Source: an uncultured delta proteobacterium (GTDB lineage: Bacteria > RBG-13-61-14 > DRUE01). Taken from it: DNA of 21,785 nt. Each line of letters opens with the position of its first letter. Position 1 is the first letter of the stretch. Positions 7,071 to 21,785 of this stretch are shown one piece after another. Below the pieces are notes generated by a model that did no database searches, was not told the DNA's origin, and saw only the letters and a program-made list of their open reading frames with translations. The stretch lies in assembly GCA_903930515.1 (NCBI GenBank), contig CAIYYW010000048.1, forward strand, positions 1 through 21,785. Direction: 5' to 3'. The translations under genes and the position numbers were made by a program.

Positions 7071-8014
7071 GTGAAAGAGGAAAATTGTTCGTAGTCGCCA
7101 CCCCGATCGGGAACCTGGAGGATTTCAGCGCCCGGGGCAAAATAACCTTGGAACAGGCGGACCTGATCTTATGCGAGGATACCCGGCGGACCCGGAATTT
7201 GCTGTCGCATTTCGGAATCCGGAATCGCGTTGAGAGTTTCCATCAGCATAATCAGGCCGAAAAGATTCCGGAAATCCTGGCTGGGCTGGACCAGGGGAAT
7301 AAAATCGCCCTCGCCACTGACGCCGGAACCCCGACCGTATCGGACCCGGGCGCGAAGTTGATCCGGGCCGCGCTTGAAGCCGGAATCAAAATCGTTCCCA
7401 TCCCCGGTCCCAGCGCGATCACCACCGCCCTCTCCGCCTCCGGCTTCAACTCCGACCGATTCCTGTTCCTGGGATTTTTGCCGGCCAAAAGTTCGGAGCG
7501 TAAAAAAATCCTGGAAAAATATCAGTCCTTTTCGGAAACCATCGTCATCTTTGAAGCGCCGCACCGGATCCGAAAAACCATCGGGGATCTCCTGGAAATC
7601 CTGGGTGACCGCGAAGCCTGCCTCTGCCGCGAGCTGACCAAGGTCTTTGAAGAAATCAAACCCGCCTCCCTGAGCCGGCTCGCCAATGACCTGCAGAACC
7701 AAAATCCCAAAGGCGAGATCACCTTGATTCTGGCAGGGGCTGATCTGAGTAAAAACATTTATCGCAATGAGTTGGACCGGGACCTTGAAGATTTAATTGA
7801 AGCGATGCTTAAAGAGGGGAAAACGAGCAAGGAGATCATTTCCGCCATATCCGGTTCCAGCAATTTTGACCCGGAATCAGATTTACCGGTTGGTTTTGGA
7901 GATCAAATCCGGCCCCGGGAATCAATGAACCAGCTTCTGATATATTTCCAAAAGCTCCCGGCAGTTCCGTCCGATGGTTTTGACCTCGGGGATGCAAGCT
8001 TTCAGGCTGGTTAA
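7067..8014 (+). CDS. rsmI: 16S rRNA (cytidine1402-2'-O)-methyltransferase RsmI, C-terminus frameshifted
   Basis: RsmI 2'-O-methylates C1402 in the decoding centre of 16S rRNA using SAM. The N-terminal tetrapyrrole-methylase-type fold is clear: V-V-A-T-P-I-G-N-L (9-17), L-C-E-D-T-R-R-T (35-42), D-A-G-T-P-T-V-S-D-P-G (85-95), I-P-G-P-S-A (112-117), F-E-A-P-H-R (162-167). As read, the ORF is 315 residues and the last 49 resemble nothing in the family. Deleting one T from the TTTT at 7864-7867 gives S-N-L-T-R-N-Q-I-Y-R-L-V-L-E-I-K and a stop at 7926-7928. That yields 286 residues, a normal RsmI length, and cuts the tail-to-tail overlap with the opposite gene from 93 to 7 bases. The frameshift is therefore either a recent mutation or a sequence error. 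Confidence 0.93.
   Translation: MSERGKLFVVATPIGNLEDFSARGKITLEQADLILCEDTRRTRNLLSHFGIRNRVESFHQHNQAEKIPEILAGLDQGNKIALATDAGTPTVSDPGAKLIRAALEAGIKIVPIPGPSAITTALSASGFNSDRFLFLGFLPAKSSERKKILEKYQSFSETIVIFEAPHRIRKTIGDLLEILGDREACLCRELTKVFEEIKPASLSRLANDLQNQNPKGEITLILAGADLSKNIYRNELDRDLEDLIEAMLKEGKTSKEIISAISGSSNFDPESDLPVGFGDQIRPRESMNQLLIYFQKLPAVPSDGFDLGDASFQAG
7864..7867 (+). other. Probable single-base frameshift site in rsmI
   Basis: The four-T run follows codon 266 (AAT). With three Ts the downstream codons encode the conserved RsmI C-terminus ending at TGA 7926-7928. With four, translation continues to 8014 through the antisense of the glycosyltransferase gene. Confidence 0.75.
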
Positions 8015-9295
8015 GCGATCGGGATGTTTGAGCAGGTCCCGGATTTTTTCCGCCAAGTCAGAGGGATGGTTCGGCTCAAATAAAATCCCTCCCCTGCCCT
8101 CCTGAACCAATTCGGCCATTCCGCCCAGGTTGCCTGCGAGCACCGGGACTTTGGCCAAAAAAGCTTCGTGGATGGTGAGCGGGGAGTTTTCATACCAGAG
8201 GCTGGGCACGACCAGGACATCAATTTGACCGAGCGCCTCTGAAATCCGGTCGTTTTTAATCTTTCCCATCCACTTGATCCTTTGGTCCCTGCCCGCGATT
8301 TTTTTCAGCATCCGCACATAGCCGGGAAAATCTTTTTCCTCCCCGAAAATCCGCAACTCCAGGTTTTGGTCCGGGATCATTCTGATGGCTTTGAGCAAAA
8401 GGTGGACCCCCTTGTGCCTCACCAAAGTCCCGATGAAGCCCAGGCTGAGCGAGGAGCGGGAAACCATTGCCGAGGGACGATCCGGTTGGAATTTTTCCGC
8501 TTCAAAACCGTAATCCGAGTAAATGATTTTTTCTCTTGGAGCCATTCCGCTCTTGATCATCATCTCCATCAAGAATCTGCTCGGAGCGATCAGGAGGGAA
8601 AGCTGGTCCACCGTTTTCCTGATCGCCTCCCATCGCTCTTTCAGAAGCGCCTGTCGTTGTTCCAACTCGGCCTTTTTCCCGATTTTTTCTCGGAGCCAGT
8701 CCACCCAGCCGGGCGGAAGCTGGCGCTTAAGTTTATGCGCATACGCCAGGCCGGATTCGGCCAACCGATAAACGCCCGCTTTCTCCGCGGAAGCCTCACC
8801 GGGATAAAAAGCGGAAAAGGAATGAGGACAATTCGCGCAGGCCTTCTCCAGGTCTTCGCCCGGACAGACCTGATCCTCGGGCCGGAGCATTATGATCGCC
8901 GGGCAGATCATCCAATAATCCGCCAGGGTCAGGACCGACGGAATTTTTCTTTGACCGGCTTCGCTGACGAACCCGCTGGACAGCCGGAGCAGGTGCTGGA
9001 AATGAACGAGGTCGGGCTTGAGTTCGTCCAAGACCCTTCCGAAAACCTGGTCAAACTCCGGCCGGGAATATCCGGATTTGAAATCAATCGCTCCCGGATG
9101 ATAAAGCCGAAAAACCTTGACGCCCTCATCCTCGTCGGTTTTCAGGTTGAATCCGGGCTGGGATTGATCTTCGCTGGTGAAAATAAAAACCTGGTGGCCT
9201 TGCCGCTGGAATTCCCTGGCCAGCGCCCGCGTATAAAGCTCGGTGCCTGCCTGGTGGCGGGGAAGGTAGTAATGGACCGCGAACAAAATCCGCAT
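7922..9295 (-). CDS. GT4-family glycosyltransferase
   Basis: A 457-residue GT-B glycosyltransferase expected to add a sugar from a nucleotide-sugar donor to a cytoplasmic glycan acceptor. The N-terminal acceptor domain starts M-R-I-L-F-A-V-H-Y-Y-L-P with an A-G-T-E-L-Y loop (16-21). The C-terminal donor domain has G-F-I-G-T-L-V-R-H-K-G-V (286-297), F-G-E-E (317-320), and the GT4 E-x7-E motif E369...E377 (E-N-S-P-L-T-I-H-E). Between the domains lies a Cys set (C131, C144, C153, C156) seen in some GT4 enzymes, possibly a metal site. It is the last gene of the minus-strand operon: its ATG overlaps the preceding stop codon (TGATG), and it converges on rsmI. Donor and acceptor sugars cannot be named. 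Confidence 0.9.
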   Translation of the reverse strand: MRILFAVHYYLPRHQAGTELYTRALAREFQRQGHQVFIFTSEDQSQPGFNLKTDEDEGVKVFRLYHPGAIDFKSGYSRPEFDQVFGRVLDELKPDLVHFQHLLRLSSGFVSEAGQRKIPSVLTLADYWMICPAIIMLRPEDQVCPGEDLEKACANCPHSFSAFYPGEASAEKAGVYRLAESGLAYAHKLKRQLPPGWVDWLREKIGKKAELEQRQALLKERWEAIRKTVDQLSLLIAPSRFLMEMMIKSGMAPREKIIYSDYGFEAEKFQPDRPSAMVSRSSLSLGFIGTLVRHKGVHLLLKAIRMIPDQNLELRIFGEEKDFPGYVRMLKKIAGRDQRIKWMGKIKNDRISEALGQIDVLVVPSLWYENSPLTIHEAFLAKVPVLAGNLGGMAELVQEGRGGILFEPNHPSDLAEKIRDLLKHPDRLTSLKACIPEVKTIGRNCRELLEIYQKLVH

Positions 9296-10287
9296 CAGTT
9301 TCCCTTGAACAGGCGGGAATAAATCCGGTATCCGAGCGAGCCTTTGACCTTCTGATGAAAATCCTCCAGCTCGGAAATATACGCCTTTAGATGTTTGATC
9401 TCATCGTCTTTATCTTTGGACGCTTCTTCCAGGCCGGAAATCCTTTGCAACACCCTTCGGGCTTCTCCGGCCCGAAACGATTCCAGCCACAATTTCAGCT
9501 TCTCGTATTCCGGCTCCGGGTCCATCTGCTTTTTCTCCAGAAAATCCCGGAGCGCCTCCGGTTTTTCCCGCAGCCGCTTCCGGCTCGCGACAATCAAATA
9601 TCGGTAAGCCGGCTCGGCCAAATCTTTCCAGAACCAATGTTTATTATAAAACTGGCTCAGCTCCCGCCTCACTGCCATCGCGGATGGGAAGGCCTCGAAA
9701 TAATAATATGCCATCACCATCAGGAACCAGCGCTCCAATTGACCGTTGGGAAGGATCACCGTGTCAAAGCCGGCCTTGACCAGCTCGGCCTCGGTCTCGG
9801 CTAAAACCGGAGCCGGAAACTCCAGATGCTCTTTCAAATATTTATGCTCGTACCCGAGCCAGTCCTTGATGAAATCAAAAACCATTCGCTCCGCTTCCCG
9901 CGCCAGCGCGTATTGGAACGGCGCCGAGATCAGAACCATTTCCGAGCTTGTCCGCGCCATCTCCTGGATCGCGGCCGGCCGGGCCTGGGGCCGGAGATGC
10001 TCCAGGAAATCGGTTGCCAGCACCACCGGAAAAGACCGGTCCGGGAACGGGAGCGTTTCCGCTCCGGCCAGGATATCCAGGCTCTCTCCCTCGCTGAACA
10101 GGTCCGAAACCATCACCTGGTCCTGGTCCAGGAATTTTCTGGCCAATCCCCGCAAGCCCCCCACCTCCAGGACTTCAAATTGTTCTCCCGGATTCCGGAC
10201 CCGGTCCAACACTTCAGCCACCAGACGGTATCGCTGGTATTGGTCAAACGGATGCTTCAGCAGTTCCTGATCCAGGTATTTACTCAT
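9295..10287 (-). CDS. Class I SAM-dependent methyltransferase with C-terminal coiled coil
   Basis: A 330-residue protein. A methyltransf_11-like domain occupies about 20-130: motif I F-E-V-L-E-V-G-G-L-R-G at 37-47, an acidic residue at the end of strand 2 (S-D-L-F, 61-64), and L-P-F-P-D-R-S-F-P-V-V-L-A-T-D-F-L-E-H-L at 79-98. Residues about 280-316 are charged and heptad-like, probably coiled coil. The extreme C-terminus, G-S-L-G-Y-R-I-Y-S-R-L-F, resembles the tail of many polysaccharide-cluster transferases and may be an amphipathic membrane contact. Its start overlaps the acetyltransferase stop by 4 bases, and its own stop shares one base with the GT4 start. A role in O-methylating the exported glycan or capping its chain is inferred from context only. 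Confidence 0.82.
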   Translation of the reverse strand: MSKYLDQELLKHPFDQYQRYRLVAEVLDRVRNPGEQFEVLEVGGLRGLARKFLDQDQVMVSDLFSEGESLDILAGAETLPFPDRSFPVVLATDFLEHLRPQARPAAIQEMARTSSEMVLISAPFQYALAREAERMVFDFIKDWLGYEHKYLKEHLEFPAPVLAETEAELVKAGFDTVILPNGQLERWFLMVMAYYYFEAFPSAMAVRRELSQFYNKHWFWKDLAEPAYRYLIVASRKRLREKPEALRDFLEKKQMDPEPEYEKLKLWLESFRAGEARRVLQRISGLEEASKDKDDEIKHLKAYISELEDFHQKVKGSLGYRIYSRLFKGN

Positions 10288-10865
10288 CTGCTTTTTATCA
10301 CCCGGGCCGGGATTCCGCCCGCGATGACTTTTTCCGGAATATTCTCCAGCACCACGCTTCCCGCCCCGATCACCGATCCCTTCCCGATCCTGACCCCCGG
10401 AAGCACCATTGCTCCCGCGCCGATCCAGACATCGTCCCCGATTTCAATCGGAGCGCTTTTTTGCTCCTGATCCTGGTGCGCGGCTCCCGGCTCGATCCCG
10501 TGGTTCGCGCCGATGATCGCCGCGGCCGGCCCCAGGCTCACCTGGTTCCCGATCCGGATCGCCGCGTCCACCGCCCGGATATTGCAAAAACTGCCCGCCA
10601 CAAAATCATCCCCGATCTCAATCTTCTCAAACCCGGTGAATACCACCAGCGGCTCCACCCGCGGATTCTTGCCCACTTTCATCCCGCGCTCAATCCCGTA
10701 TTCCATTGAATGATGATGAAAAAATCCCGCCCACCGGATCAGGACATTTTCCAACTCCGCCAGCTCCGGGCTGGCCTTGCGCTCCTTCACCTGACAATAG
10801 AGCCGGTCCAGCTCCGGGTCGTCCATCAGCCTTTTGAAGAATTTTATTTTATCCAGGATGCCCAT
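10284..10865 (-). CDS. Left-handed beta-helix (hexapeptide repeat) O-acetyltransferase
   Basis: A 193-residue acyltransferase of the maltose/galactoside O-acetyltransferase type. Residues about 1-60 are helical. Hexapeptide repeats start around 65: I-E-I-G-D-D-F-V-A-G, I-R-I-G-N-Q-V-S-L-G, I-E-I-G-D-D-V-W-I-G-A, V-R-I-G-K-G-S-V-I-G-A-G-S-V-V. The catalytic His of the family is H122 in A-N-H-G. The C-terminal G-G-I-P-A-R-V-I (183-190) is the usual acetyl-CoA site element. It probably O-acetylates a sugar in the glycan built by this operon. The ATG lies 17 bases inside the upstream B12 radical SAM gene, so translation is coupled. An N-acyltransferase role in making an amino sugar is the alternative, but no aminotransferase is visible nearby. 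Confidence 0.88.
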   Translation of the reverse strand: MGILDKIKFFKRLMDDPELDRLYCQVKERKASPELAELENVLIRWAGFFHHHSMEYGIERGMKVGKNPRVEPLVVFTGFEKIEIGDDFVAGSFCNIRAVDAAIRIGNQVSLGPAAAIIGANHGIEPGAAHQDQEQKSAPIEIGDDVWIGAGAMVLPGVRIGKGSVIGAGSVVLENIPEKVIAGGIPARVIKSR

Positions 10866-12615
10866 CGCTCACTCCCTGAACCAAATGCGGCCGGGACCAT
10901 AATGCCACACAGTATTCATTCCCATTGTCCGTCATGGTCTCCAGCGTGAGTTCCACCCGCTTCTCTCCGAACCGCGCCAGGTCAACCTCAAAATCCATCC
11001 ATCTCCGCTCCTCTTGATTATGCTTCGGGTCAATATATTTTGAAAATACCGTCTGCTCTTTCCCGAATCTGGTCTTGACCTTGACCAGATACCAGCACCC
11101 GGCTCCGGGCTGGTCCCAGACATCCAGGGAAAAACTGGCGCCGAATCTGAGCCTGGTGCCTTTTTTTAATTTCAGCTTCCAGCTCACCCGGCTGGGCGGA
11201 TGAATCAAAATGCTCAAGCGGTCCTCGCCCAGAATCCGCACCAGCCAGAGCAGGACATATTTTTTATCAAGGGTTTCAATTCTTGCCTGCTCAAACTCCG
11301 CGGACAGATCCCAATATCCTTTTTTTGCCTTCTTCGCCTCCCAGAGCCAGCCCAGCGCGAGAAAATCATTATAAATTTCTTTCAGACGGTCGCGGGAAAT
11401 CCCGGGCAAATTTAATCTCGGCTGGGGAAGACAAATCGCGGTGGCCTCTCCTTCCGGAATCAATCCCTTTTTTATGCATACATCATAAAGCGGAGTGGAG
11501 GGAAAGGGTTGAAACACCGACAAATTGAGATGGCTGGGAAAAAGTCTTTGATTGAACAGGATGGTTTTCCGGATCGTCTCTTCCGTGTCCCCGGGCACCC
11601 CGATCATATTGTGGGCCGAGGTTTCTATCCCCAGCTCATCGCACCATTGGAACAGCTCTATGATCTTCTCGTCCGACATCCTGCGGTTTAGGATCTCCCT
11701 CCGGATCCGCTCGTCCCCCGATTCCACCCCGACCAGAATGGAATACAGGCCGGTCTCCCGCAGGAGCTTGAGCGTCTCGTAATCAACCGTGCCCACCCGG
11801 ATATAAACCTGGAAGGGAGTGGAGAAGAGCGTTTGATACTCCCGGCAAAATGCCCGGGTCCATTTCTTGTCCGCGGTGAAAACCTCGTCCATAAAAACAA
11901 TGCGCTTGATCTCCGGACGGCGCTTGAGCGCCCGCTCAAATTCCGCAATCACTTCTTCCACCGAGCGATGCCGGTGCCAGTTTTTCACTCCCCCGGCCAG
12001 CTTGGTCAGGACCGTGTTGCAGCAAAAACTGCAGGCAAACGGACAGCCCCGGCTCGCCATCATCGTGAACTGGCCGTTGTTTTCCCGCATCAGCCGCTCT
12101 TCATCAAACAACTCGCGGTCCGGGGGAGGAAGCTGATCCAGATTGATCGCCGGACGGACCGGGTTTGATTTGATCTCATCCCCTTCCCGCCACCAGATAT
12201 TCATTATCCCGCGCCAATCCCTTCCTCCTTGCAAGGCGTCCGCCAGCTCCAAAAGCGGATACTCGCCCTCGCCCCGGATCAAAAAATCAAAAATGCCTTC
12301 CGCCATCACCGCCTCCGGCGCGATGGTGGCGTGTATCCCGCCGATCACCAGCGGAATCTTCAGCGATTCCTTGAACGCTTTTGCGTACCGGCGCGTGAAT
12401 TGGTATTGCAGGGTGCCGGACGAGAATCCGATCAATGCCGGTTTCATCCGCCGGATTTGCTCCACCACCTCCGCTTCCGGGAGCTCCCGATTGATGTAGA
12501 GCAATTCCACCTGGTGGCCGCCCTGCTTCAGTACCGCGCTGATCCAGGCCAGGCCGTGCTGGTAATGGTAAAACATGGTGGTATGTATATCTAAATAGAC
12601 CAAAGCGATCTTCAT
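10849..12615 (-). CDS. B12-binding-domain radical SAM enzyme with C-terminal beta-sandwich-like module
   Basis: 588 residues in three parts. The N-terminal cobalamin-binding-like Rossmann domain (about 1-150) has A-L-I-G-F-S-S-G, I-G-G-I-H-A-T-I-A-P-E (91-101) and I-R-G-E-G-E-Y. The radical SAM core (about 183-400) has its 4Fe-4S ligands in C191-P-F-A-C195-S-F-C198. About 467-580 forms an extra module starting I-H-P-P-S-R-V-S-W, related to those in the enzymes at 15797-17605 and 17840-19282. Enzymes of this class often methylate unactivated carbon or phosphorus through methylcobalamin, but some do other chemistry, and the substrate is unknown. An in-frame upstream start at 12831 would add 72 low-complexity residues lying inside the previous gene. 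I chose ATG 12613-12615 because it gives the canonical M-K-I-A-L-V-Y start and overlaps the previous stop (TAATG). Confidence 0.9.
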   Translation of the reverse strand: MKIALVYLDIHTTMFYHYQHGLAWISAVLKQGGHQVELLYINRELPEAEVVEQIRRMKPALIGFSSGTLQYQFTRRYAKAFKESLKIPLVIGGIHATIAPEAVMAEGIFDFLIRGEGEYPLLELADALQGGRDWRGIMNIWWREGDEIKSNPVRPAINLDQLPPPDRELFDEERLMRENNGQFTMMASRGCPFACSFCCNTVLTKLAGGVKNWHRHRSVEEVIAEFERALKRRPEIKRIVFMDEVFTADKKWTRAFCREYQTLFSTPFQVYIRVGTVDYETLKLLRETGLYSILVGVESGDERIRREILNRRMSDEKIIELFQWCDELGIETSAHNMIGVPGDTEETIRKTILFNQRLFPSHLNLSVFQPFPSTPLYDVCIKKGLIPEGEATAICLPQPRLNLPGISRDRLKEIYNDFLALGWLWEAKKAKKGYWDLSAEFEQARIETLDKKYVLLWLVRILGEDRLSILIHPPSRVSWKLKLKKGTRLRFGASFSLDVWDQPGAGCWYLVKVKTRFGKEQTVFSKYIDPKHNQEERRWMDFEVDLARFGEKRVELTLETMTDNGNEYCVALWSRPHLVQGVSDGHPG

Positions 12616-13661
12616 TATTCCCTCCCCAGATATAGCCCGAGGCAATCCCCGCAGAATTCCGAGAAACCTTTGCTTTGCATTTCCTCCCGAAAGGAAACCG
12701 CCTCCGGCCCCTCCCAGATTTCCCGCAGGGTCTTTTCCAAAATATTGCCCAACACAACCGTGGTCGGCCTCCGCAATTCTTTTTTCCGGTTGATCAGCAG
12801 AACCGGATACCCGAGCGCGCAACAGGGACACACATCCCCGACCGCCTTGATCAAAAGGTTTTCCAGAGGGAACACGCCGCAGCCGCCCTTGGCCTCGGGG
12901 TAAATTTTCTCCGGCCGGATCAGTTCCATTTGCCCTTTCAATTTCCGTTCCAGATCTTCCACCCGCTCCCGCAACTCCTGATCCGGAAAATCCGTTCCGT
13001 AATAGCCGGAATAGGTCAACTCGTTCAATTCCGGCTCGCTGAACACCCCGGTCATCTGCTGGAGAATGATTCCCTCAACCCCCAGTCCCTTCATCTTTCC
13101 GGCAAAAGCGGACAGCTCGCTCAGCCGGCTTTTGCCAAGCAGGAAGCTCGCGTAAATCTTGGGCTTGCGGCTGCCGAGCATCCTTTTCCGCAAAACCAGG
13201 TTCTTGATCGCCAGTTCCAACTCCTCCCAATGCTCGCCCCGGACCTTACGATAGCTGTATTCATTCGCGGCGTCCACCGAGAAACAAATACTGTCAACCT
13301 GGTTTTCCAAAATCTCCTCAATCTTGAACTTATCCAGCAGGATGCCGTTGGTGGTAAAAATCAATTGACCGGAAAAATTACCCCGGATCTTTTTCAGGAA
13401 CCAGCCGAATTCCGGATGCAACAACGGCTCGCCCCAGCCGGTCAGGTCAATACTCTGAAGATATTTCAACTCGGATAATATTTTCCCCAGCGCCCCCGCG
13501 GACATAAATTTGTCTTTGCCCGCGCCGATGTAGGTCTTGCGGGAACAGCGGTGGCAGTTCAGGTTGCAGGCGCTGGAAAGCTCCAGGTTGATCCCGGTCA
13601 GCTTGATCGGACCCTGGCCGATGCCTTTTCCGATCAGATCATTTGCGCCGGAATCGGACAT
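12615..13661 (-). CDS. Radical SAM enzyme with SPASM-type C-terminus
   Basis: A 348-residue radical SAM protein. The cluster-binding motif is C32-N-L-N-C36-H-R-C39. Further core elements are L-T-G-W-G-E-P-L-L-H-P (73-83), T-T-N-G (103-106) and S-V-D-A (128-131). C-terminal cysteines C261, C278, C280, C281, C337 and C340 fit an auxiliary-cluster SPASM or twitch domain, followed by the common L-G-N-I-L-E-K-T-L-R-E-I-W sequence. SPASM enzymes act on peptides, proteins, sugars or other small molecules; the target here is unknown. ATG 13659-13661 overlaps the previous stop (TGATG) and follows GGAGG. An earlier in-frame start at 13736 lies inside the upstream gene and is rejected. This is one of three consecutive radical SAM genes between the two B12-type paralogues. 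Confidence 0.9.
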   Translation of the reverse strand: MSDSGANDLIGKGIGQGPIKLTGINLELSSACNLNCHRCSRKTYIGAGKDKFMSAGALGKILSELKYLQSIDLTGWGEPLLHPEFGWFLKKIRGNFSGQLIFTTNGILLDKFKIEEILENQVDSICFSVDAANEYSYRKVRGEHWEELELAIKNLVLRKRMLGSRKPKIYASFLLGKSRLSELSAFAGKMKGLGVEGIILQQMTGVFSEPELNELTYSGYYGTDFPDQELRERVEDLERKLKGQMELIRPEKIYPEAKGGCGVFPLENLLIKAVGDVCPCCALGYPVLLINRKKELRRPTTVVLGNILEKTLREIWEGPEAVSFREEMQSKGFSEFCGDCLGLYLGRE

Positions 13662-14710
13662 CAAAATCCTCCGCGCAAAAATTCCGGGACCGACAGCGAA
13701 TCGCCCAGGGAGCAGGACAACATACATTCCGGGCATAACTCCCGCTCCACCCTTTGCCGCAACTCCATCGCCTCTTTGCTCTTCCAGAAAATCTCCGGCG
13801 GATCAGAGATAAAATTCACCCGCTTCCATTCCGAGCAGAGCGGGCAGGGAATCCAGGATCCGTCCGCGTCAATCGCCAGGGTGGAATACAAACTCAGGCA
13901 TCTCCGGTCCCGCTTCTGTCCCGAAAGCACCGCCAGCATCCTCCGGTATTGATAGCTGAGCGCAGCGCCCGATTGCGGGATCAACCTTTTTAGAAATATT
14001 ATCACCTGTTCTTTCTCAGCCTGGTCCAAGGCCAGCTCCCCGGCCCGGTCCTGGTTGCAATAATACTGATCCGTGATTTCCACCATATTGAAAGTCAGGC
14101 TCGATCCCTGATCCTGCGCAAATTTCCTGATCTCCTCCAATTGATCCACATTCTGCTTCTGGATCACGCAATTAAACCCCAGCTCTATCTTCCGGGCCGG
14201 ATACCTCTTCTTTAGACCGTTTATTCCCTTCACAGTTTCAGAAAGCGCCGCAAACGCCCCCACTCTCCCGCGAATCCGATCCTCCACCTCCCCGATCCCG
14301 TCCAGCGACAAATGAACAAACAACCCCTGCCGGGTAGGATCCAGTTCGGAAAGGATTTCTTCCAACCGGGCAAGAATCCGTTCGGTCGCGAACCCGTTGC
14401 TGGCGATCCCTAAAACCCGCATTCCCGGAAGCGAGTCCCGGAAAACCGCGGCCAGCTCTTTCAAGTCCTTGCGCATACTCGGCTCTCCGCCGGTGAGCCA
14501 GGCCGTGTCAATTTTGCGGAAAAATTTCCGCTGAATTATTTTCTTCAGGTCAACCGGCGCAAGCTCCTTCTGCTTTTCCGCCTCCCAGATCCCGCAATGC
14601 CGGCAGGCCAGGTCGCAGCGCAAGGTGGGGTTGTAGATCAAATACCTGGGCAACGGTATGAACAGACGGCCGGCCAGGTAATAAAATGTCAACCGTTCCA
14701 GGTTATTCAT
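13661..14710 (-). CDS. Radical SAM enzyme (SPASM-like), glycan cluster
   Basis: A 349-residue radical SAM protein. The motif is C32-D-L-A-C36-R-H-C39-G-I-W. The core continues with W-L-T-G-G-E-P-S-M-R (71-80), A-S-N-G-F and L-S-L-D-G-I. The C-terminal part carries C-L-S-L-Y-S-T-L-A-I-D-A-D-G-S-W-I-P-C-P-L-C and then C-P-E-C-x-x-x-C, consistent with auxiliary iron-sulphur ligands. The W-I-P-C-P-L-C element is typical of SPASM-like enzymes that are annotated broadly as molybdenum-cofactor/heme-biosynthesis-like. The start overlaps the previous gene's stop by 4 bases (14707-14710). It presumably modifies a cluster intermediate; the reaction is unknown. Confidence 0.9.
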   Translation of the reverse strand: MNNLERLTFYYLAGRLFIPLPRYLIYNPTLRCDLACRHCGIWEAEKQKELAPVDLKKIIQRKFFRKIDTAWLTGGEPSMRKDLKELAAVFRDSLPGMRVLGIASNGFATERILARLEEILSELDPTRQGLFVHLSLDGIGEVEDRIRGRVGAFAALSETVKGINGLKKRYPARKIELGFNCVIQKQNVDQLEEIRKFAQDQGSSLTFNMVEITDQYYCNQDRAGELALDQAEKEQVIIFLKRLIPQSGAALSYQYRRMLAVLSGQKRDRRCLSLYSTLAIDADGSWIPCPLCSEWKRVNFISDPPEIFWKSKEAMELRQRVERELCPECMLSCSLGDSLSVPEFLRGGF

Positions 14711-15825
14711 TTTATCCCAACCAGCCTTTCAAATTCTTGGTTCTCAAATAAATATCCGCATTCCAGGCAGTCACAAAGCCCGGGCGGACCCTGCTCCGAA
14801 ATCCTGAGCATCCGCTCCCGGATTTCCTGGGCGGCCGGCGAAGTCCAGATCCGATAAAAAGATTGCTCGCGCAAATTCCCCAGGACCGTCTCGCAGTTGC
14901 AACAGGGACGGACCGAGCCGTCCGGCCAGACCATCGCGAAGCTGTATCCGGAATAGCATCTCCCTTTCTGATAAATATTTCCGGCGCGGAGTTTTCCCAA
15001 ATGCCCGGGCTGGCCGGTGAACCCGAGATAGATTCCCTTTTCCCGGGCCAAAGGCTGCCAGTGCGCAAGCTCATTCAGGAAATCCTGAAACTCCTTTTCG
15101 CCGAGCGCGAATCCTTTCGGTTCCTCTTTCGGAAACGGAAAATCCATCAAGGCCAGATAACTCACCGCTTCCGCGCCGGAATCAATCCCGAACCTGAGCA
15201 GTTGTTCCACTTCCCGGAAATTGCGCCGGTTTAAGACCGCGGTGAGAGAAAGATAGGGCTTGGCCAAAGATTTTTGATCGCGCAGTTTCCGGATCAACTT
15301 GATCCCGTTCCTGATCTTTTCCAGGTTGGAGCCGGATACCCCGCTCTGGTCTTGGAAGCTGGATTCGGTCCCGGCATTGACGCTGATGGAAATGCGGTCC
15401 AGGCCCGAAGACGCGAGCGCCGCCGCGAAATTTTCCAGCAAAATGCCATTGGTCACCAGCGCGAGTTCTGCCTGGGGAAAACCTCTCCGGAGCAAAAAGA
15501 TCATCGCCATAATCCGCTTGTGCAGGAGCGGCTCTCCGCCGGTGATGTGGATTCGCTTCAATCCGCCCAGCCGATACAGGTCATCCACCATTCGGTCGAA
15601 CACTCCGAAATTGAGGTCCGCCTCCTCCCGCATCCATCTCGGCGCGAATTTTTCCCGCGTCTCTATGCTCACCGCCTGGGTCGGACAGAAGATACAGCGC
15701 TCGTTGCAGCGGGTGGTCGGAAGGATTTGCAAATCCAGCGGCCCGGATATGGCCCTGCCCTCGCGGATGGATTTCCGCAGATTTTCTATGCTTCCTTTAC
15801 TGAGCAACTTCAGCCTCGCTTTCAT
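14707..15825 (-). CDS. Radical SAM enzyme with SPASM domain
   Basis: A 372-residue radical SAM enzyme. After a basic N-terminal helix, the cluster ligands are C40-N-E-R-C44-I-F-C47-P-T-Q. The SAM-binding G-G-E-P follows in H-I-T-G-G-E-P-L-L-H-K, then V-T-N-G-I-L and I-S-I-S-V-N-A-G. The C-terminal SPASM region has C-Y-S-G-Y-S-F-A-M-V-W-P-D-G-S-V-R-P-C-C-N-C, G-N-L-R-E-Q-S-F-Y-R-I-W and a final C-D-C-x-x-C. The gene begins 29 bases inside the preceding B12 radical SAM gene and ends overlapping the next gene by 4 bases. This fits tight co-expression, perhaps as a working complex. The substrate is unknown. Confidence 0.9.
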   Translation of the reverse strand: MKARLKLLSKGSIENLRKSIREGRAISGPLDLQILPTTRCNERCIFCPTQAVSIETREKFAPRWMREEADLNFGVFDRMVDDLYRLGGLKRIHITGGEPLLHKRIMAMIFLLRRGFPQAELALVTNGILLENFAAALASSGLDRISISVNAGTESSFQDQSGVSGSNLEKIRNGIKLIRKLRDQKSLAKPYLSLTAVLNRRNFREVEQLLRFGIDSGAEAVSYLALMDFPFPKEEPKGFALGEKEFQDFLNELAHWQPLAREKGIYLGFTGQPGHLGKLRAGNIYQKGRCYSGYSFAMVWPDGSVRPCCNCETVLGNLREQSFYRIWTSPAAQEIRERMLRISEQGPPGLCDCLECGYLFENQEFERLVGIK

Positions 15826-17605
15826 AAGCTCCGCAGATCAGGAGCGGGTTGGTGAATCCCGCGGTATTGAATTGATCTTTGCCCGCCTGGGCCGCGCTGG
15901 TTTCCAGCTCCAGAATAAACTTCCCCGGCGAATATTTTGAAAGGTCAATTTCAAAATCAAAAAATCCCCGGTCGGATTTTTTCGCCTTGGCGTCAAGGCG
16001 GTGCCGAAAAATTTCCTGGAGCGAGCCGGTGTCGGGTCCGGCCCGAACCTGGAAGATCACCCCGCCCGGATCTCCCTGGTCATAAATGCCGGGATGCATA
16101 AAGATTCCGAAATTGAACCGGGCCGGCGCGGATAGTTCCAAAAGATACTGAATCCGGCAGGGCGGATGCATAATCAGACCCCGCCGCTCCTCTTCATATA
16201 TGATAATGTATTCCTCTCCGTAATAGTCCGGCACCGGCGTATATTTATCCGCCGTCCCGAGTTGGTCAATCAGGTTGAACAGCTCCTCCCGGCCGGAAAG
16301 TTTTGCCGCCAGCATTTTCCGGTTCCGGCAAAACTCGCTGAGCCGGACCAGCTTCTGATGCCAGTGATGAATTTCATTGGGAGCCAGCGACGGGAATTCC
16401 AGGACGCTTTTTGACACGAAATATCCGTCCACTGTTCCTCCCTTGAGGAATCCTTTTCCCTTGCACAACTCGTAAAGCCGGGTGCCGGGATACGGGTTGA
16501 ACACGCTCACCTGCATATGGTCCGGGCAGAGCGACCGGTTGAGATTGTAAGTCGCGAGCGCGTCCTCCGCAGTCTCCCCGGGCAGGCCGACCATATTGAA
16601 CGACCAGGTCTTGATCCCGGCCTGCTCCGCCGATTGGAACGATTCCATAATTTGCGACTGGCTGACCTTGCGGTTCATAATCCCGCGCCGCACCCGGTCG
16701 GACCCGCTCTCCACGCCGATCCTGACCATCTCGCATCCGCATCTTGCCAGCTCCCGGTAAATTCCCCGGTCAACCGTTCCGGCGTGGACATTGATCCGGA
16801 AGGGGTAGTGGAATCGCTTGGGATATTTTTCAAAAAATTCTTTCATCCAGTCCCGGTTCAAGGTGAAAATATCGTCATTGAAATCCAGGCTCCGGATTTG
16901 ATATTGCCGAGCGCAGTGTTCAATCTCGCCGAGCAAATTGTCCACCGAGCGGAACCGGAGATATGTCCCTTTGCCGCTATAGAGCAAGCGCTTGCCCTGG
17001 TTCGCGCAGTATGCGCAATCATACGGGCAGCCGCGTCCGACCAATAAACTCAGCCGCTGATCGTCCTGGTCCAGGATTTCCTGGTAGTGAAAAATCTCGC
17101 GGTCCGCGAAAGGAATTCCATCCAGGTTTTCCATCAAGCCGCAGATCGGGTTCCGCTGGATCCGGCCCCCGGTTCTGACCCACAGGTTTTCAATGCCGAG
17201 AAAATCCTTCCCCTGCTCCAGGGCATTCGCCAGTTCCACCATGGCCTTCTCGCCTTCTCCGACGCAAACGATGTCTATTTCCGGCGCCGCCAATGTTTCT
17301 TCAGGCGCGAGCATCGCGTGAACCCCGCCGGCGATGATCGGAATCGTCGGAAACGCAGGTTTTAAAACTTTCGCGATTTTCGCAAGATACGGAAACTGAT
17401 GGGTGGTCCCGCTCAAAGCGATCAGGCCGGGATCCAACTTTTTTACATCCGCGATCAACTCCTCTGCTTCCGGAAGCTCGGTGAGGTAAAACAGATGCGT
17501 CAGATGCCCGGCTTTTTTCAGGACCGCGGACAGGTATCCGATCCCGTGCTGAAAATGACGGGGAAGAAAACTGCCGAGGTCGGGATATATAAATAAAATC
17601 CGCAT
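15797..17605 (-). CDS. B12-binding-domain radical SAM enzyme with C-terminal beta-sandwich-like module
   Basis: 602 residues, a paralogue of the enzyme at 10849-12615 with the same three-part layout. The cobalamin-binding-like domain (about 1-155) has L-I-A-L-S-G-T-T-H-Q-F, I-A-G-G-V-H-A-M-L-A-P-E (91-102) and C-V-G-E-G-E-K. Like many family members it lacks the classical D-x-H-x-x-G, so cobalamin would bind without a protein His ligand. Radical SAM ligands are C193-P-Y-D-C197-A-Y-C200. The shared C-terminal module runs from about 476 (L-I-M-H-P-P-C-R-I-Q-Y) to 592 (T-N-P-L-L-I-C). It likely performs cobalamin-assisted radical chemistry such as C-methylation; this is inferred from the family. 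The next gene starts 29 bases before this one ends. Cys-rich gene 17621-17818 lies 15 bases upstream. Confidence 0.9.
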   Translation of the reverse strand: MRILFIYPDLGSFLPRHFQHGIGYLSAVLKKAGHLTHLFYLTELPEAEELIADVKKLDPGLIALSGTTHQFPYLAKIAKVLKPAFPTIPIIAGGVHAMLAPEETLAAPEIDIVCVGEGEKAMVELANALEQGKDFLGIENLWVRTGGRIQRNPICGLMENLDGIPFADREIFHYQEILDQDDQRLSLLVGRGCPYDCAYCANQGKRLLYSGKGTYLRFRSVDNLLGEIEHCARQYQIRSLDFNDDIFTLNRDWMKEFFEKYPKRFHYPFRINVHAGTVDRGIYRELARCGCEMVRIGVESGSDRVRRGIMNRKVSQSQIMESFQSAEQAGIKTWSFNMVGLPGETAEDALATYNLNRSLCPDHMQVSVFNPYPGTRLYELCKGKGFLKGGTVDGYFVSKSVLEFPSLAPNEIHHWHQKLVRLSEFCRNRKMLAAKLSGREELFNLIDQLGTADKYTPVPDYYGEEYIIIYEEERRGLIMHPPCRIQYLLELSAPARFNFGIFMHPGIYDQGDPGGVIFQVRAGPDTGSLQEIFRHRLDAKAKKSDRGFFDFEIDLSKYSPGKFILELETSAAQAGKDQFNTAGFTNPLLICGAYESEAEVAQ

Positions 17606-17620
17606 GGGCTTTTCGCCGCC

Positions 17621-17818
17621 TTAAATATGGTTCCTGGCAAAGCAACTGAAGGACCGGTCATAGGTTGCCTCGCCTTCCGCGTTGAACGCGCAAGCCGGCA
17701 GTTCCTTGATCCGGAGATGATAGCGCAGGCACTCGCAGCAGATCCCCTTGCGCTCGCACGGCTCATAGGTGCAGTTGCAGCTCTTTTGATTTTTTTCCCG
17801 GTTCTTGCAATCAGCCAT
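17621..17818 (-). CDS. Cys-rich small protein, DUF6485-like
   Basis: A 65-residue protein with nine cysteines (4, 14, 16, 21, 27, 28, 30, 43, 59). The core N-C-T-Y-E-P-C-E-R-K-G-I-C-C-E-C-L-R-Y-H followed by E-L-P-A-C-A-F and T-Y-D-R-S matches my recollection of the DUF6485 family, small proteins of unknown function from anaerobes. The CxCx4C...CCxC spacing suggests a metal or iron-sulphur site. A strong AAGGAGG lies just upstream of the ATG, so the gene is surely expressed. It lies between the GT2 gene (21-base gap) and a B12 radical SAM gene (15-base gap). It could be a metal-cluster accessory or redox partner. A RiPP precursor substrate for the radical SAM enzymes is conceivable but less likely, because conservation extends over the whole length. 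Confidence 0.75.
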   Translation of the reverse strand: MADCKNREKNQKSCNCTYEPCERKGICCECLRYHLRIKELPACAFNAEGEATYDRSFSCFARNHI

Positions 17819-17839
17819 TCCTAAACCTCCTTGAAAATT

Positions 17840-19282
17840 TCACGGGTGGCGGAACCCGGATGGACTCGCGATCCGCTCCGCCCCTCCGATCAAATAATTT
17901 TTCAGACTAAATCCCGGGCTTAGATCCTTGATCACAATCCTCGGCTCCGCCCATCCGGCCCAGGCGTATTTCAAATCCGCCGACCCGGTGACCAGGCTGA
18001 TCTTGACCCTCTTCCCCGCCCACGGGCCCAGGTCCAACGCAAACTCTTTCCAGGCCTGAAGGCTCTCCAAGCTCATCTCCAGCCGGCGCCGGAAGATCGG
18101 TTCCTGGTCAACCGCGACCATAAAATCAATCGGCGCGGTCCGATGCCGGAAGGCCTCGGGCTTGATCCCGATCCCGAAGCGAAGCTGGCAATTTTTACCG
18201 ATCTTCATCCGGTAATTTATTATGGCCGATGGCTGGGCAAGAATCACCTTTTTCCAGGAGTCGCCGATGACGAAAGCTGTTTTGGCCACCCGTTCTTTGG
18301 CATCGGCCGGAAAAACGGCTGCGCCGGAGAGATGACGGATCAGGTCAGAGCCGGTTTCGGTTTGCGGTTCCCATCCGGCCAGAAATCTTCCCGCGACCTC
18401 AACCCCGGAAAGCATCGGCCATTGAAACAGGGCGAAAACTTTTTCCATAAATTCAGCGTCGGCCTTGAAGATCTCCCGGCTGGTTTCGCCAAGACCGTAA
18501 AACCATCCACCCAAAGCGTTCCGGAAAGAAGGGTAATAGACCTGGCCGAAATATTTTTTCGCCGCCTGCTGGTCCGCCCATCCGCGCCGGAAAAAATAAA
18601 ACGCCCGGCTGGAATGGGAATGACGCGCGACCGAGCCCGGCTCGAAAATTATTTTATAGCCTCCGAGCAAGCAGTTCCGGCTCCAGACCAAATCTTCGGC
18701 CCAGGCGCTGTCCGGGATCGGGATCCGGTCCAAAACCGATTTCTTCCGGACCGAGCTGACATCGTCAAAATCGCAGAGGGCGATCCGCGCCAGCGGTTCC
18801 ATCATCCAGTATTCTTTCGACTCTTTCAGCCCGGTTTCCGTCCGGGCTTCCCGGAAAACTTTTCTCTTGATCAGCCGCAGCTTTTCCAGCAAGCCCGCTC
18901 CCGTCCGGGGGAGCTGGCGGCTGTACGCCCCGGCGATCCGGTCATCGCTTTTGGCCGCATCCACCAATTTTTTCAGCCACTGCTGATCAGCCGGGACCGC
19001 GTCCGCGACCAGGCAAACCAGGAATTCCCCCTCGGCCTGGTCGGAAGCGAACCGCCTGGTTTTGCCGTGGCTGAATTCTTCCCTTTTTATCTCCAGCAGC
19101 CGGAGCGGATATTTTTGGGCGAATCCTTCGGCGATTTGTTTGGTGCGATCGCTTGACCCGGAATCAACCAACAGGACCTCAAAAGGGAAATCGGTTTCTT
19201 GCGCGAAAACCGCGGTCAGGCAGTTCGGAAGATTTTTTTCTTCGTTCAGGGCAAGAATGATCACGCTGGCCAGGGGCTTCAT
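17840..19282 (-). CDS. GT2-family glycosyltransferase (rhamnosyltransferase-like) with C-terminal beta-sandwich-like module
   Basis: A 480-residue protein. The GT-A domain (about 5-240) has S-V-I-I-L-A-L-N-E-E (6-15), L-L-V-D-S-G-S-S-D (37-45) and F-S-H-G-K-T-R-R (70-77), a motif typical of rhamnosyltransferase-like GT2 enzymes. V-A-D-A (92-95) stands in the DxD place, and W-A-E-D-L-V-W (194-200) carries the probable catalytic-base region. About 345-455 is an additional module beginning A-Q-P-S-A-I-I-N-Y and ending W-A-E-P-R-I. It resembles the C-terminal modules of both B12 radical SAM enzymes in this operon. The ATG directly abuts the previous stop codon (TGA-ATG), showing translational coupling. 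It probably builds the glycan exported by Wzm/Wzt. The sugar specificity is a guess from one motif. Confidence 0.88.
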   Translation of the reverse strand: MKPLASVIILALNEEKNLPNCLTAVFAQETDFPFEVLLVDSGSSDRTKQIAEGFAQKYPLRLLEIKREEFSHGKTRRFASDQAEGEFLVCLVADAVPADQQWLKKLVDAAKSDDRIAGAYSRQLPRTGAGLLEKLRLIKRKVFREARTETGLKESKEYWMMEPLARIALCDFDDVSSVRKKSVLDRIPIPDSAWAEDLVWSRNCLLGGYKIIFEPGSVARHSHSSRAFYFFRRGWADQQAAKKYFGQVYYPSFRNALGGWFYGLGETSREIFKADAEFMEKVFALFQWPMLSGVEVAGRFLAGWEPQTETGSDLIRHLSGAAVFPADAKERVAKTAFVIGDSWKKVILAQPSAIINYRMKIGKNCQLRFGIGIKPEAFRHRTAPIDFMVAVDQEPIFRRRLEMSLESLQAWKEFALDLGPWAGKRVKISLVTGSADLKYAWAGWAEPRIVIKDLSPGFSLKNYLIGGAERIASPSGFRHP

Positions 19283-20341
19283 TCACTGACCTGACAGATC
19301 GGAATTGAACCAGGGGCTGCGGCCTTCTTGCAGGCAGCGCCGGCAGGCCTCGGGATACTTCCCGCTTGCGATCACGGCCCGGAATTTTTGATAGCCCGGC
19401 CCGTTCCAGGCCGACTGGAAATCCCCGCCCTTGAGCGAGCCCATTTTTTCCGGACTGCCGCAGCAGAGAAATACCCTTCCGTCGGTCCTGACCCCGAAAT
19501 TGATCCAGGGCTGAAGGCATCTCAACAGCGGATTTTTTTGTTCCAGGTAATGGCTGGAGAAATGGAGGCGGCCTTTGGCCTGATCCCGGAGCCGGATCAA
19601 GGTCTGGATCAATTCCCGGCTGGGGGGCACATAATTTTTTTGATAAAAATCCTGGTAGGTTTGGTCAAAGCTGAAGACCGGGCTGAGCGGCTCGATCACC
19701 AGATGGTTCAGCCCGAGCGAATACGCGAACTGGACCAGGGCTGGGAGTTCCGCGACATTTTCTTTCATCAGAGTGAACTGCATATTGAGATAGGGTTTTT
19801 CCACCCCGAGCTTTTTCTTCTGGTCCTGGACCAGGATCACCGATTCCACCACCCGCTCCAGTTCCGCGCCCTTCCGGATTTTCCGGTAAGTGTCGGGGCT
19901 GACCGCGTCAATGGAAAAGGAAATGGTGTTAATGGAGAGCTTGACCAGGTAGAGCGCGATTTCGCCGGTGAGCAGGGTGCCGTTGGTGTTGAAAATGATC
20001 TCAGGCTCGTAGCTCCGGACCAGCTCCAGCAGGCTCATAAAATACGGATGCAAAAACGGCTCCCCGCCCCCGCTCATAAAACACCGGAGCGCGCTGGTGA
20101 GCGGCTCCTCCATCATCTCCACCAGGCCGGGGTCCAGAAATTTCTCCTGATACTGGTAATCGCTCACCCCCATTGCCACCGGGCACATCGGGCAGGACAG
20201 ATTGCAGACGCTGGTCGGCTCCAGATAGATCGCGAGCGGTAAATGGCTTACCTGGACCTGGCCGGCCTTGAGACTTTCCCGCGCCCGCTCCAGGTTTTCC
20301 CGCTTTTTTTCCGGCAAACTTTTTTTCCCGAATATCGCCAT
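19283..20341 (-). CDS. Radical SAM enzyme with SPASM domain
   Basis: A 352-residue enzyme with the radical SAM motif C46-N-L-S-C50-P-M-C53-P. The core has F-M-S-G-G-G-E-P-F-L-H-P, with an extra Gly compared with the usual G-G-E-P context, then F-N-T-N-G-T-L-L and I-S-F-S-I-D-A. The SPASM region has C-L-Q-P-W-I-N-F-G-V-R-T-D-G-R-V-F-L-C-C-G, G-S-L-K-G-G-D-F-Q-S-A-W-N-G and a final C-R-R-C. The N-terminal 30 residues are highly charged. It directly follows the wzt-like gene (3-base gap) and abuts the GT2 gene, so it belongs to the export operon. The substrate is unknown. Confidence 0.9.
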   Translation of the reverse strand: MAIFGKKSLPEKKRENLERARESLKAGQVQVSHLPLAIYLEPTSVCNLSCPMCPVAMGVSDYQYQEKFLDPGLVEMMEEPLTSALRCFMSGGGEPFLHPYFMSLLELVRSYEPEIIFNTNGTLLTGEIALYLVKLSINTISFSIDAVSPDTYRKIRKGAELERVVESVILVQDQKKKLGVEKPYLNMQFTLMKENVAELPALVQFAYSLGLNHLVIEPLSPVFSFDQTYQDFYQKNYVPPSRELIQTLIRLRDQAKGRLHFSSHYLEQKNPLLRCLQPWINFGVRTDGRVFLCCGSPEKMGSLKGGDFQSAWNGPGYQKFRAVIASGKYPEACRRCLQEGRSPWFNSDLSGQ

Positions 20342-20344
20342 CGG

Positions 20345-21586
20345 CTAGCTGATCCTCCAGTCGCAGGGATTGATAAAAACACCCCGGTCCAGGATCTTTC
20401 CCGGGCCAACTTCAAACCTGATTAAATCAAAAACTTCGTCCACCGGCAAGCAAGCCCCGCTCCGGCCCTTGAAAATATTCACCGAAACCTGATACCTCCC
20501 GGCCAGGAGCAGGTTGCGGAATTGGTATCTGACCGAACCGCGATGCCCTGGGGGAATCGGGCCGGAAAACCCGCACTCTACGCCCTGACCGAATTCCTCG
20601 CCTGCGCCTTGCGCGCATTCCTGGTTGGCGCTCAGGATCAGCACCCCGTCGGTCCTAAAAATATTCACTCCGAAAAGCGGCTCCTTGACTTCCCTCTCCG
20701 CCCGATACTCATATTCAATTTCCATCCGCTCGCCCGGCCTGATCAGAGCGGTTTCTTTCCCTTCCGAGTTCTTGATCCGCGCCGAGATGATCGTCGCCTC
20801 CCCGCTCCCCCTCCGCTTCCACTCCCCATGCGCCGGCGCTTTCATCTCTCCCGAGACCGCCTCCTGATAAATTTCCTCCAGGTATGATTCAATCACTTCC
20901 CCGGCCGGACCGATTTTTTGCAGCTTCCCTTGCGACAAATACGCCACGCGGTCGCACAGCCCGCGGACCATCGTCAGGTCGTGGGAGGCGATCATCATCG
21001 CCGCCCCCTGCTCTTTGAATTCCAGCATCCGGCGCAAACATTTGGACCGGAAATATTCATCGCCCACCGCAAGCGCCTCGTCAATCAGGAGCAGTTCCGG
21101 ATCAAGCGCCTGCGCGAGCGAGAAGCCGAGCCGGAGATACATCCCGTCCGAATAAGTCCGGACCGGAAACTCGATGAATTCCCCCAGCTCCGAGAAAAGG
21201 ATTATCTCCCGGATTTTTTTCTCCAACTCCGAGCGGGAAAATCCCGCGATCATTCCGTTGAGGAGGAGGTTTTCCCGGCCGGTGAATTCCGGATGGAAAC
21301 CGCTGCCGAGTTCCAGCAGGGACGCCACTCTGCCGACGATTTCAATTTCGCCGGAACTGGGCGGGCTGATCCCGGCGACGATCCGGAGCAGGGTGGATTT
21401 CCCCGCGCCGTTCTTGCCGATGATCCCCAGGCACTGCCCTTTTCCCAGCTCCAAGCTCAGACCTTTGAGCGCGGCAACTTCCTTGCGGTACTGTTTCGCG
21501 CCCAGGCTGATTTTTTCGTAAAGCCAGAACCGGGGCCTTTGGTAAACCCGGAAGGTCTTGCTCATATTTTTCAATCGTAAAATCAT
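20345..21586 (-). CDS. wzt: Wzt-like ABC transporter ATPase of a polysaccharide exporter
   Basis: A 413-residue ATP-binding subunit that powers export of lipid-linked polysaccharide with its Wzm-type permease. The nucleotide-binding domain (about 1-240) has Walker A G57-K-N-G-A-G-K-S-T65, signature Y-S-D-G-M-Y-L-R-L (145-153), Walker B L-L-L-I-D-E (165-170) and switch His202 (A-S-H-D). The motif L-L-E-L-G-S-G-F-H-P-E-F-T-G-R-E-N (90-106) is characteristic of the O-antigen/teichoic-acid exporter subfamily. Residues about 262-400 form a Wzt-C-like beta-sandwich, which in known systems recognises a modified glycan end; methyl or other caps are typical signals. ATG 21586 follows the permease stop by one base. 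A TTG 18 bases upstream was not chosen. Confidence 0.93.
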   Translation of the reverse strand: MILRLKNMSKTFRVYQRPRFWLYEKISLGAKQYRKEVAALKGLSLELGKGQCLGIIGKNGAGKSTLLRIVAGISPPSSGEIEIVGRVASLLELGSGFHPEFTGRENLLLNGMIAGFSRSELEKKIREIILFSELGEFIEFPVRTYSDGMYLRLGFSLAQALDPELLLIDEALAVGDEYFRSKCLRRMLEFKEQGAAMMIASHDLTMVRGLCDRVAYLSQGKLQKIGPAGEVIESYLEEIYQEAVSGEMKAPAHGEWKRRGSGEATIISARIKNSEGKETALIRPGERMEIEYEYRAEREVKEPLFGVNIFRTDGVLILSANQECAQGAGEEFGQGVECGFSGPIPPGHRGSVRYQFRNLLLAGRYQVSVNIFKGRSGACLPVDEVFDLIRFEVGPGKILDRGVFINPCDWRIS

Positions 21587-21587
21587 T

Positions 21588-21785
21588 TTACAGCCGATCC
21601 GCAAATCCTTTTTTCAAGCGGAAAAAAACCAGCAGTCCCAGGCCCAGGCTGATCAAGGAGCATCCCGCAACCAGCAGGATTTGATTCCCGGACGGAATTC
21701 CGCCTTCCAGCAACAGTCTCCGGTAGCCGGTCACCAATTGCGCCATCGGGTTGAGCAAAATCACCATCTGATATTTTTCCGGAAC
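21588..21785 (-). CDS. wzm: Wzm-like ABC-2 transporter permease, C-terminal part
   Basis: Only the last 65 codons are inside the window; the 5' end is beyond the right edge. The frame reads L-N-P-M-A-Q-L-V-T-G-Y-R-R-L-L-L, the conserved segment before the last membrane helix of polysaccharide ABC-2 permeases. A hydrophobic helix L-L-V-A-G-C-S-L-I-S-L-G-L-G-L-L-V-F-F and a basic tail R-L-K-K-G-F-A-D-R-L follow before TAA (21588-21590). One base separates it from the ATPase gene. Together they form a Wzm/Wzt exporter in the inner membrane. Confidence 0.88.
   Translation of the reverse strand, partial: VPEKYQMVILLNPMAQLVTGYRRLLLEGGIPSGNQILLVAGCSLISLGLGLLVFFRLKKGFADRL

Follow-up and report, generated by a model that had tools for sequence, protein, structure and literature searches.

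A Wzm/Wzt export operon with six radical SAM enzymes: a probable pathway for radical tailoring of a glycan before export

Assembly of O-polysaccharides by ATP-binding cassette (ABC) transporter-dependent systems, of the Klebsiella O3/O4/O5/O7/O12 type, is among the closest described processes to the one considered here. In Wzm/Wzt systems, the chain is built cytoplasmically on a polyisoprenoid carrier and is then exported, and the carbohydrate-binding domain of Wzt, where present, checks the chain end (PMC11231755). The operon described here was found in an uncultured delta proteobacterium, on a 21,785-nucleotide stretch (the window) that is the whole of contig C48 in a draft genome of 3.65 Mb and 401 contigs (G000). 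It shares with the Klebsiella-type loci a Wzm/Wzt pair that includes a C-terminal carbohydrate-recognition domain, as well as glycosyltransferases and a methyltransferase with a possible role in chain capping, but differs in holding six radical S-adenosylmethionine (rSAM) enzymes and in lacking sugar-nucleotide genes, an obvious polymerase and a kinase-methyltransferase terminator. The known targets of radical SAM enzymes include peptides, lipids, cofactors, nucleosides and aminoglycosides. In the literature on SPASM or other rSAM enzymes with glycosyltransferases, O-antigen or CBM51, no title or abstract was found that describes an rSAM tailoring set of a bacterial glycan exporter.

In our judgement, held with moderate confidence, the operon serves to build a glycan or glycolipid, remodel it in the cytoplasm by radical chemistry and then export it; we infer the substrate, the order of the steps, the chemistry, the use of cobalamin and the capping. 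The best reading of the product is a lipid-linked glycan or small glycolipid, radically tailored ahead of ABC export. Two glycosyltransferases, of families GT2 and GT4, would assemble sugars, presumably on a lipid carrier whose starter enzyme would be encoded elsewhere. Two B12-binding rSAM enzymes (B12-rSAMs) and GT2 would dock on the same carbohydrate via a CBM51/NPCBM-like domain. Both B12-rSAMs, together with four rSAMs of the SPASM/twitch type, would abstract hydrogen and so alter sugar carbons, whether by methylation, deoxygenation, epimerisation or oxidation, and an acetyltransferase and a methyltransferase may finish or cap the chain. Wzt would then recognise the chain through its Wzt_C domain, and Wzm/Wzt would export it.

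This glycan-tailoring reading is now backed by evidence independent of gene neighbourhood. The first line of such evidence is a domain shared by B12rSAMa (15797..17605; this and all other operon genes lie on the minus strand), B12rSAMb (10849..12615) and GT2 (17840..19282; PF00535 E 3.8e-22). These three proteins have homologous C-terminal stretches of about 125 residues, located at ~15827-16300 (residues ~436-593 of B12rSAMa), at ~10852-11250 (placed by domain alignment) and at ~17897-18286 (by domain homology). In an AlphaFold2 model of B12rSAMa (mean predicted local distance difference test, pLDDT, 87.5; C-terminal domain mostly 83-96), residues 436-593 form a predicted beta-sandwich that VIA-align matches to CBM51 (7jrm, 2vmh; Z 15.5, ~2.3 Å, 133-137 residues). 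The identification came from this fold comparison, as a sequence profile of the C-terminal domain gave no significant match against the PDB. Pfam NPCBM (PF08305) is matched by two of 12 domain-family members (best E 4.5e-4), the first window member being unmatched. The predicted fold and the weak NPCBM matches thus recall the CBM51/NPCBM modules of glycoside hydrolases. Known modules of this kind sit on secreted hydrolases, whereas those of the operon sit on rSAMs and glycosyltransferases, where sugar binding is a prediction of the model.

The domain is present in 32 of 386 surveyed genomes. Glycosyltransferases of family GT4 found beside Wzt in G143 and G273, N-terminally similar to the GT4 of the window, carry an inserted CBM51-like domain, which is also present in two-domain proteins adjoining GT4. 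B12-rSAMs bearing the tag also occur in tandem arrays of two (G037), three (G280) and four (G149). The arrays of G149 (L223:6150-13554) and G280 (L224:4574-10026), which lie between housekeeping genes near era/der or yidC, have no glycosyltransferase close by, so the CBM51-like tag marks an enzyme family wider than the operon.

The second line of evidence comes from relatives of SPASMb (14707..15825; PF04055, PF13186). In three genomes of three families (G304, G179 and G037), such relatives are fused to GT4 and, in the next gene, to a carbamoyltransferase, which in G304 was called by sequence similarity to those of G179 and G037. The G304 pair adjoins a Wzt_C match. These fusion pairs lie at L264:3801-10457, L265:1372-7426 and L185:1-5345, and in L265 two genes resembling NAD-dependent sugar epimerases follow. 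Other SPASMb relatives, in G364, G368 and G263, are joined to B12-rSAMs, some together with a second SPASM copy, in proteins of 1014-1540 residues (L262:758-5380, L271:2459-6793 and L270:4954-7998, with three rSAM domains in two of them). Because the CBM51-like domain is common to the B12-rSAMs and GT2, and because SPASM enzymes are fused elsewhere to GT4 and carbamoyltransferase, a carbohydrate-type substrate is supported as a prediction for the rSAMs, and the interpretation of a first-pass annotation, made from the letters of the window, is to that extent upheld.

In a tree of SPASM enzymes, one clade (support 0.94) unites SPASMb, the fusions to GT4 and carbamoyltransferase, and several enzymes of loci L179 and L189. 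SPASMa (19283..20341) and SPASMd (12615..13661) fall on another branch with the remaining L179/L189 enzymes, a grouping of low support. The two loci, in G037 (L179:6664-12724) and G304 (L189:6615-14082), are compact cassettes of the form Wzm-SPASM-Wzt-SPASM-SPASM(-SPASM). Since they hold both the SPASMb and the SPASMa/d lineages, relatives of the window's SPASM enzymes are seen again beside Wzm/Wzt in other genomes.

Conservation within the phylum ties the genes of the operon to one another. Three genomes were compared, namely that of the window, one of the same genus (G001) and one of another family in the same order (G002). Each contains exactly one Wzt_C gene, always within this cluster. 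The order common to G001 and G002 is Wzm-Wzt-SPASMa-GT2-DUF6485-B12a-SPASMb-[rSAMc]-SPASMd-B12b-HexAT-MT, the last two being the acetyltransferase and the methyltransferase. In G001, contig C162 holds a Wzm fragment, Wzt, SPASMa, GT2, DUF6485, B12a and the start of SPASMb, while contig C805 holds the end of SPASMd, B12b, the acetyltransferase, the methyltransferase and GT4, with identities to the window of 62-76% (55% for the short Wzm fragment). In G002, contig C57 runs from Wzm through the N-terminal part of B12b and contig C64 continues with the B12b C-terminus, the acetyltransferase and the methyltransferase, at identities of ~38-52% (73% for DUF6485). Since another species of the genus and a member of a second family share this gene order, the reading of the operon genes as one pathway is supported. 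The first-pass annotation had looked to a conserved rSAM set beside Wzm/Wzt in several genomes as support and to close relatives with rSAM genes dispersed independently of the exporter as refutation; the cluster occurs in all three phylum genomes, and no such scattering is seen in G001 or G002.

The number of rSAM genes at this locus is itself far above chance. All six fit into 9.5 kb, a length for which only 0.16 are expected from the 62 rSAM matches of the 3.65 Mb genome, and the probability of at least six is ~2e-8 for one fixed stretch, before correction for the number of places. For comparison, 80 other Wzt_C neighbourhoods were drawn from PF14524 matches in other genomes (up to 19.5 kb, some clipped at contig ends), a sample that favours strong Wzt_C matches; rSAMs were counted with custom-built profiles, which divergent members may escape. 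The count is zero in 66, one in six, two in five, three in two and four in one, and never six. The claim that ordinary clusters have at most one fits 72 of the 80 but fails for the eight with two to four. Because of these eight, the window stands at the far end of a pattern seen in a minority of neighbourhoods and is not a unique event. A scan of genome contigs returned generic B12-rSAMs; several of these loci have at least three rSAMs and some transferases, but none pairs at least three rSAMs with Wzt. A plasmid search with B12rSAMa found no full-length relative, the best match being one from Solidesulfovibrio (34.5% identity over 67% of the query). At least four more radical SAM genes are clustered elsewhere in the genome of the window (G000:C148:28660-37716).

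Several points weigh against the glycan-tailoring reading. Only three genomes represent the phylum, and on no single contig of the three does the whole cluster lie with both its ends. In G001 two contigs share the cluster between them, and rSAMc falls in the gap and was not found elsewhere in that genome; the G002 cluster is broken within B12b, and GT4 does not follow the methyltransferase there. Among the 13 operon genes are only two glycosyltransferases, and no sugar-nucleotide gene. No glycosyltransferase was recognised between the genes of the L179 and L189 cassettes, and none is found near the G149 and G280 arrays of tagged B12-rSAMs, so the tag alone is no proof of work on the glycan of an exporter. 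Lastly, the fold of SPASMa decides for neither a peptide nor a sugar substrate, since peptide- and sugar-acting enzymes are equally close to it, as detailed below.

The B12-rSAMs can be compared with two characterised groups of enzymes. Both match PF02310 (E ~2e-19) and PF04055, with the motifs CPFACSFC and CPYDCAYC. Their best NCBIfam match is HpnJ (TIGR03471), with scores of 166 and 140 bits (cut-off 577.6). HpnJ, itself an rSAM enzyme, makes the cyclitol ether of bacteriohopanetetrol glucosamine (PMC12583986), and thus acts on a lipid-linked amino sugar. The operon enzymes differ from it in scores far under the cut-off, in an extra CBM51-like domain and in their genomic setting, as squalene-hopene cyclase (PF13243) is absent from all three phylum genomes. 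Since no hopene cyclase was found and the TIGR03471 scores fall short, the B12-rSAMs were rejected as hopanoid enzymes. Similarly, tungsten-cofactor maturation was rejected for the SPASM enzymes: TIGR04317, a tungsten-enzyme maturase family, is the best NCBIfam match of SPASMa and SPASMd, but they score 127 and 157 bits where its cut-off asks for 380. These best matches, and the rSAM-rich genome, are what would favour rSAMs that merely share an operon with the exporter and have another role, such as metal-cofactor maturation or work on lipids. With no score reaching a curated cut-off, no squalene-hopene cyclase in the phylum, a CBM51-like domain common to GT2 and the B12-rSAMs, SPASM-GT4 fusions elsewhere and a gene order kept across two families, we regard this explanation as very improbable.

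The second group is that of AprD4, an rSAM 1,2-diol dehydratase that acts on the aminoglycoside paromamine. The methylase MgmA and AprD4 tie in Z as folds closest to the core of B12rSAMa, so that methylation and deoxygenation are both possible. The AprD4 match to the B12-rSAM core (Z 29.3, 402 residues, 17% identity) implies likeness in core fold and, as the substrate of AprD4 is of the saccharide type, counts in favour of the glycan-tailoring reading; however, the NCBIfam score is 87 bits against a cut-off of 500, and the match stops before the CBM-like domain.

The four remaining rSAMs had been counted in the first-pass annotation as CxxxCxxC/SPASM-type, alongside two of B12 type. B12-binding domains are confirmed in two proteins and SPASM (PF13186; gathering threshold 21.5 bits) in three, SPASMa (40.2), SPASMb (43.3) and SPASMd (47.1), whereas rSAMc (13661..14710; PF04055 E 6.9e-14) has no Pfam SPASM match, although it has a similar Cys-rich C-terminus. 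The auxiliary cysteines common to SPASMa, SPASMb and SPASMd number four (C-x17-C or similar, then CxxC), a twitch-like arrangement. These four C-terminal cysteines would suffice for one auxiliary cluster, not for the two of a full SPASM domain.

An AlphaFold2 model of SPASMa (pLDDT 85) places SkfB, DesII, BlsE and SuiB about equally close, with Z from 24.1 to 23.5 (DesII 23.7, BlsE 23.6), and BtrN lower (19.2). DesII, BlsE and BtrN act on sugars or cyclitols and are like SPASMa in fold, but at only 15-20% identity and with peptide maturases scoring equally. We know of none of the three that comes from an exporter operon. An aminoglycoside-like alternative is that the cell exports a small natural product, either a saccharide or a glycolipid, instead of an O-antigen polymer, with one or two sugars as the rSAM targets, much as aminoglycosides are made. 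The closeness of B12rSAMa to AprD4 and of SPASMa to DesII and BlsE fits this alternative, as do the many tailoring enzymes per few transferases, the two glycosyltransferases and the lack of a polymerase module in the operon. On the other side, lipid-linked glycans are the known cargo of Wzt_C-type transporters (PMC11231755), an extended glycan would suit CBM-like domains, and the genome has LpxC and Wzy_C/ligase-family genes. On balance we think it unlikely, though the most serious of the competing explanations. LpxC is in fact found in all three phylum genomes, which favours the glycan-tailoring reading, and proteins of the Wzy_C/ligase family are also encoded; a lipopolysaccharide-type end point is therefore possible, to judge from gene content.

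The equal standing of SkfB and SuiB among the closest SPASMa folds raises a different prospect, that the operon is a glycopeptide pathway or one for a ribosomally synthesized and post-translationally modified peptide (RiPP), whose SPASM enzymes and B12-rSAMs modify a small Cys-rich precursor that is then exported. SPASM enzymes are known mostly as peptide maturases, the B12 enzymes score 118-128 bits with NCBIfam ApyD (under its cut-off of 750), and a Cys-rich protein of 65 residues is encoded within the operon (17621..17818). This mini-protein, which the first-pass annotation had noticed as a member of the set, is indeed present but belongs to DUF6485 (PF20095 E 5.1e-8), a widespread single-copy family that is not specific to the operon and is probably a passenger in it. 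Of 60 genomes surveyed, 20 have DUF6485, almost all with one copy only, and among the controls Thermotoga maritima and Methanocaldococcus jannaschii encode it too; in other phyla, the ~1.5 kb around it held no recognised rSAM. On these grounds the mini-protein was rejected as a RiPP precursor. It is the sole small protein of the operon, where no cluster-specific precursor peptide was found, the overlapping genes leaving no space for a further small open reading frame (ORF), and the operon has neither a peptidase nor a RiPP-type transporter. The glycopeptide option raised in the first-pass annotation is thereby weakened and disfavoured, as the mini-protein is widespread, occurs in unrelated genomes without the cluster and is not a peptide precursor; a RiPP or glycopeptide product is improbable. 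DUF6485 is nonetheless fixed between GT2 and B12rSAMa in all three phylum genomes (73-74% identity), despite having no rSAM link elsewhere.

Returning to a radically tailored exported glycan, we read the system as ABC-dependent glycan export with an added rSAM set, and there is a reasonable chance that it is part of a wider undescribed class. More specifically, and tentatively, since we put it somewhat short of an even chance, this class would combine CBM51-tagged, glycan-docked B12-rSAMs with a SPASM lineage associated with glycosyltransferases and Wzm/Wzt, encoded separately in this operon but as multi-rSAM or GT4-rSAM fusions in other lineages, and its exported glycans would be modified beyond known surface-sugar chemistry. 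If the glycan-tailoring reading of the operon holds, radical chemistry would extend to exported surface glycans, and sugars outside the ordinary nucleotide-sugar pathways would be predicted. The CBM51-like tag on B12-rSAMs and the GT4-SPASM and carbamoyltransferase-SPASM fusions would offer a sequence handle for finding such systems.

The operon itself consists of thirteen minus-strand genes running from 21785 to 7922, with neighbours that overlap or sit 0-21 bp apart. The first-pass annotation had placed Wzm/Wzt, GT2, GT4, a methyltransferase, an acetyltransferase and six rSAMs at 7922-21785, and Pfam and NCBIfam confirm that all are present, backing every gene assignment except the Wzm fragment. 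This fragment (21588..21785), the C-terminal 65 residues of an ABC-2 type permease clipped by the contig end, owes its identity to a full-length homologue of 265 residues in G002 (L024:10459-11256). Wzt (20345..21604) combines an ABC transporter ATPase (PF00005 E 5.3e-18) with the C-terminal Wzt_C carbohydrate-recognition domain (PF14524 E 3.9e-19, 69.5 bits against a cut-off of 30.4), and starts at either TTG 21604 or ATG 21586. All six rSAM proteins retain an intact CxxxCxxC motif, and SPASMa and SPASMd, like SPASMb, match PF04055 besides PF13186. Better starts than those of the raw ORF list are ATG 13661 for SPASMd, whose ORF reaches 13736, and ATG 12615 for B12rSAMb, each overlapping the preceding stop by one base.

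Downstream of B12rSAMb lie a hexapeptide-repeat O-acetyltransferase (10284..10865; PF00132 E 2.8e-14), which scores under the cut-off of all named NCBIfam families shown, and a SAM methyltransferase (9295..10287; Methyltransf_11, PF08241 E 2.6e-5) with a C-terminal tail that looks coiled-coil-like by eye. The latter is kept in G001 and G002 and may cap the chain. The last gene encodes GT4 (7922..9295; PF13692 E 6e-29), which has a homologue in G001. No starter transferase is among the 13 operon genes, the remaining genome not having been searched for one. Scans of the window with Rfam and for tRNA genes gave no match. The 3′ end of GT4 overlaps by 93 bp that of a convergent TP_methylase (RsmI-like) gene on the plus strand (7067-8014). 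Two adjoining minus-strand genes of the window (2-1378 and 1531-3759) encode lipoprotein-like products with Cys-containing RCC1 repeats (YCWG/WCWG motifs).

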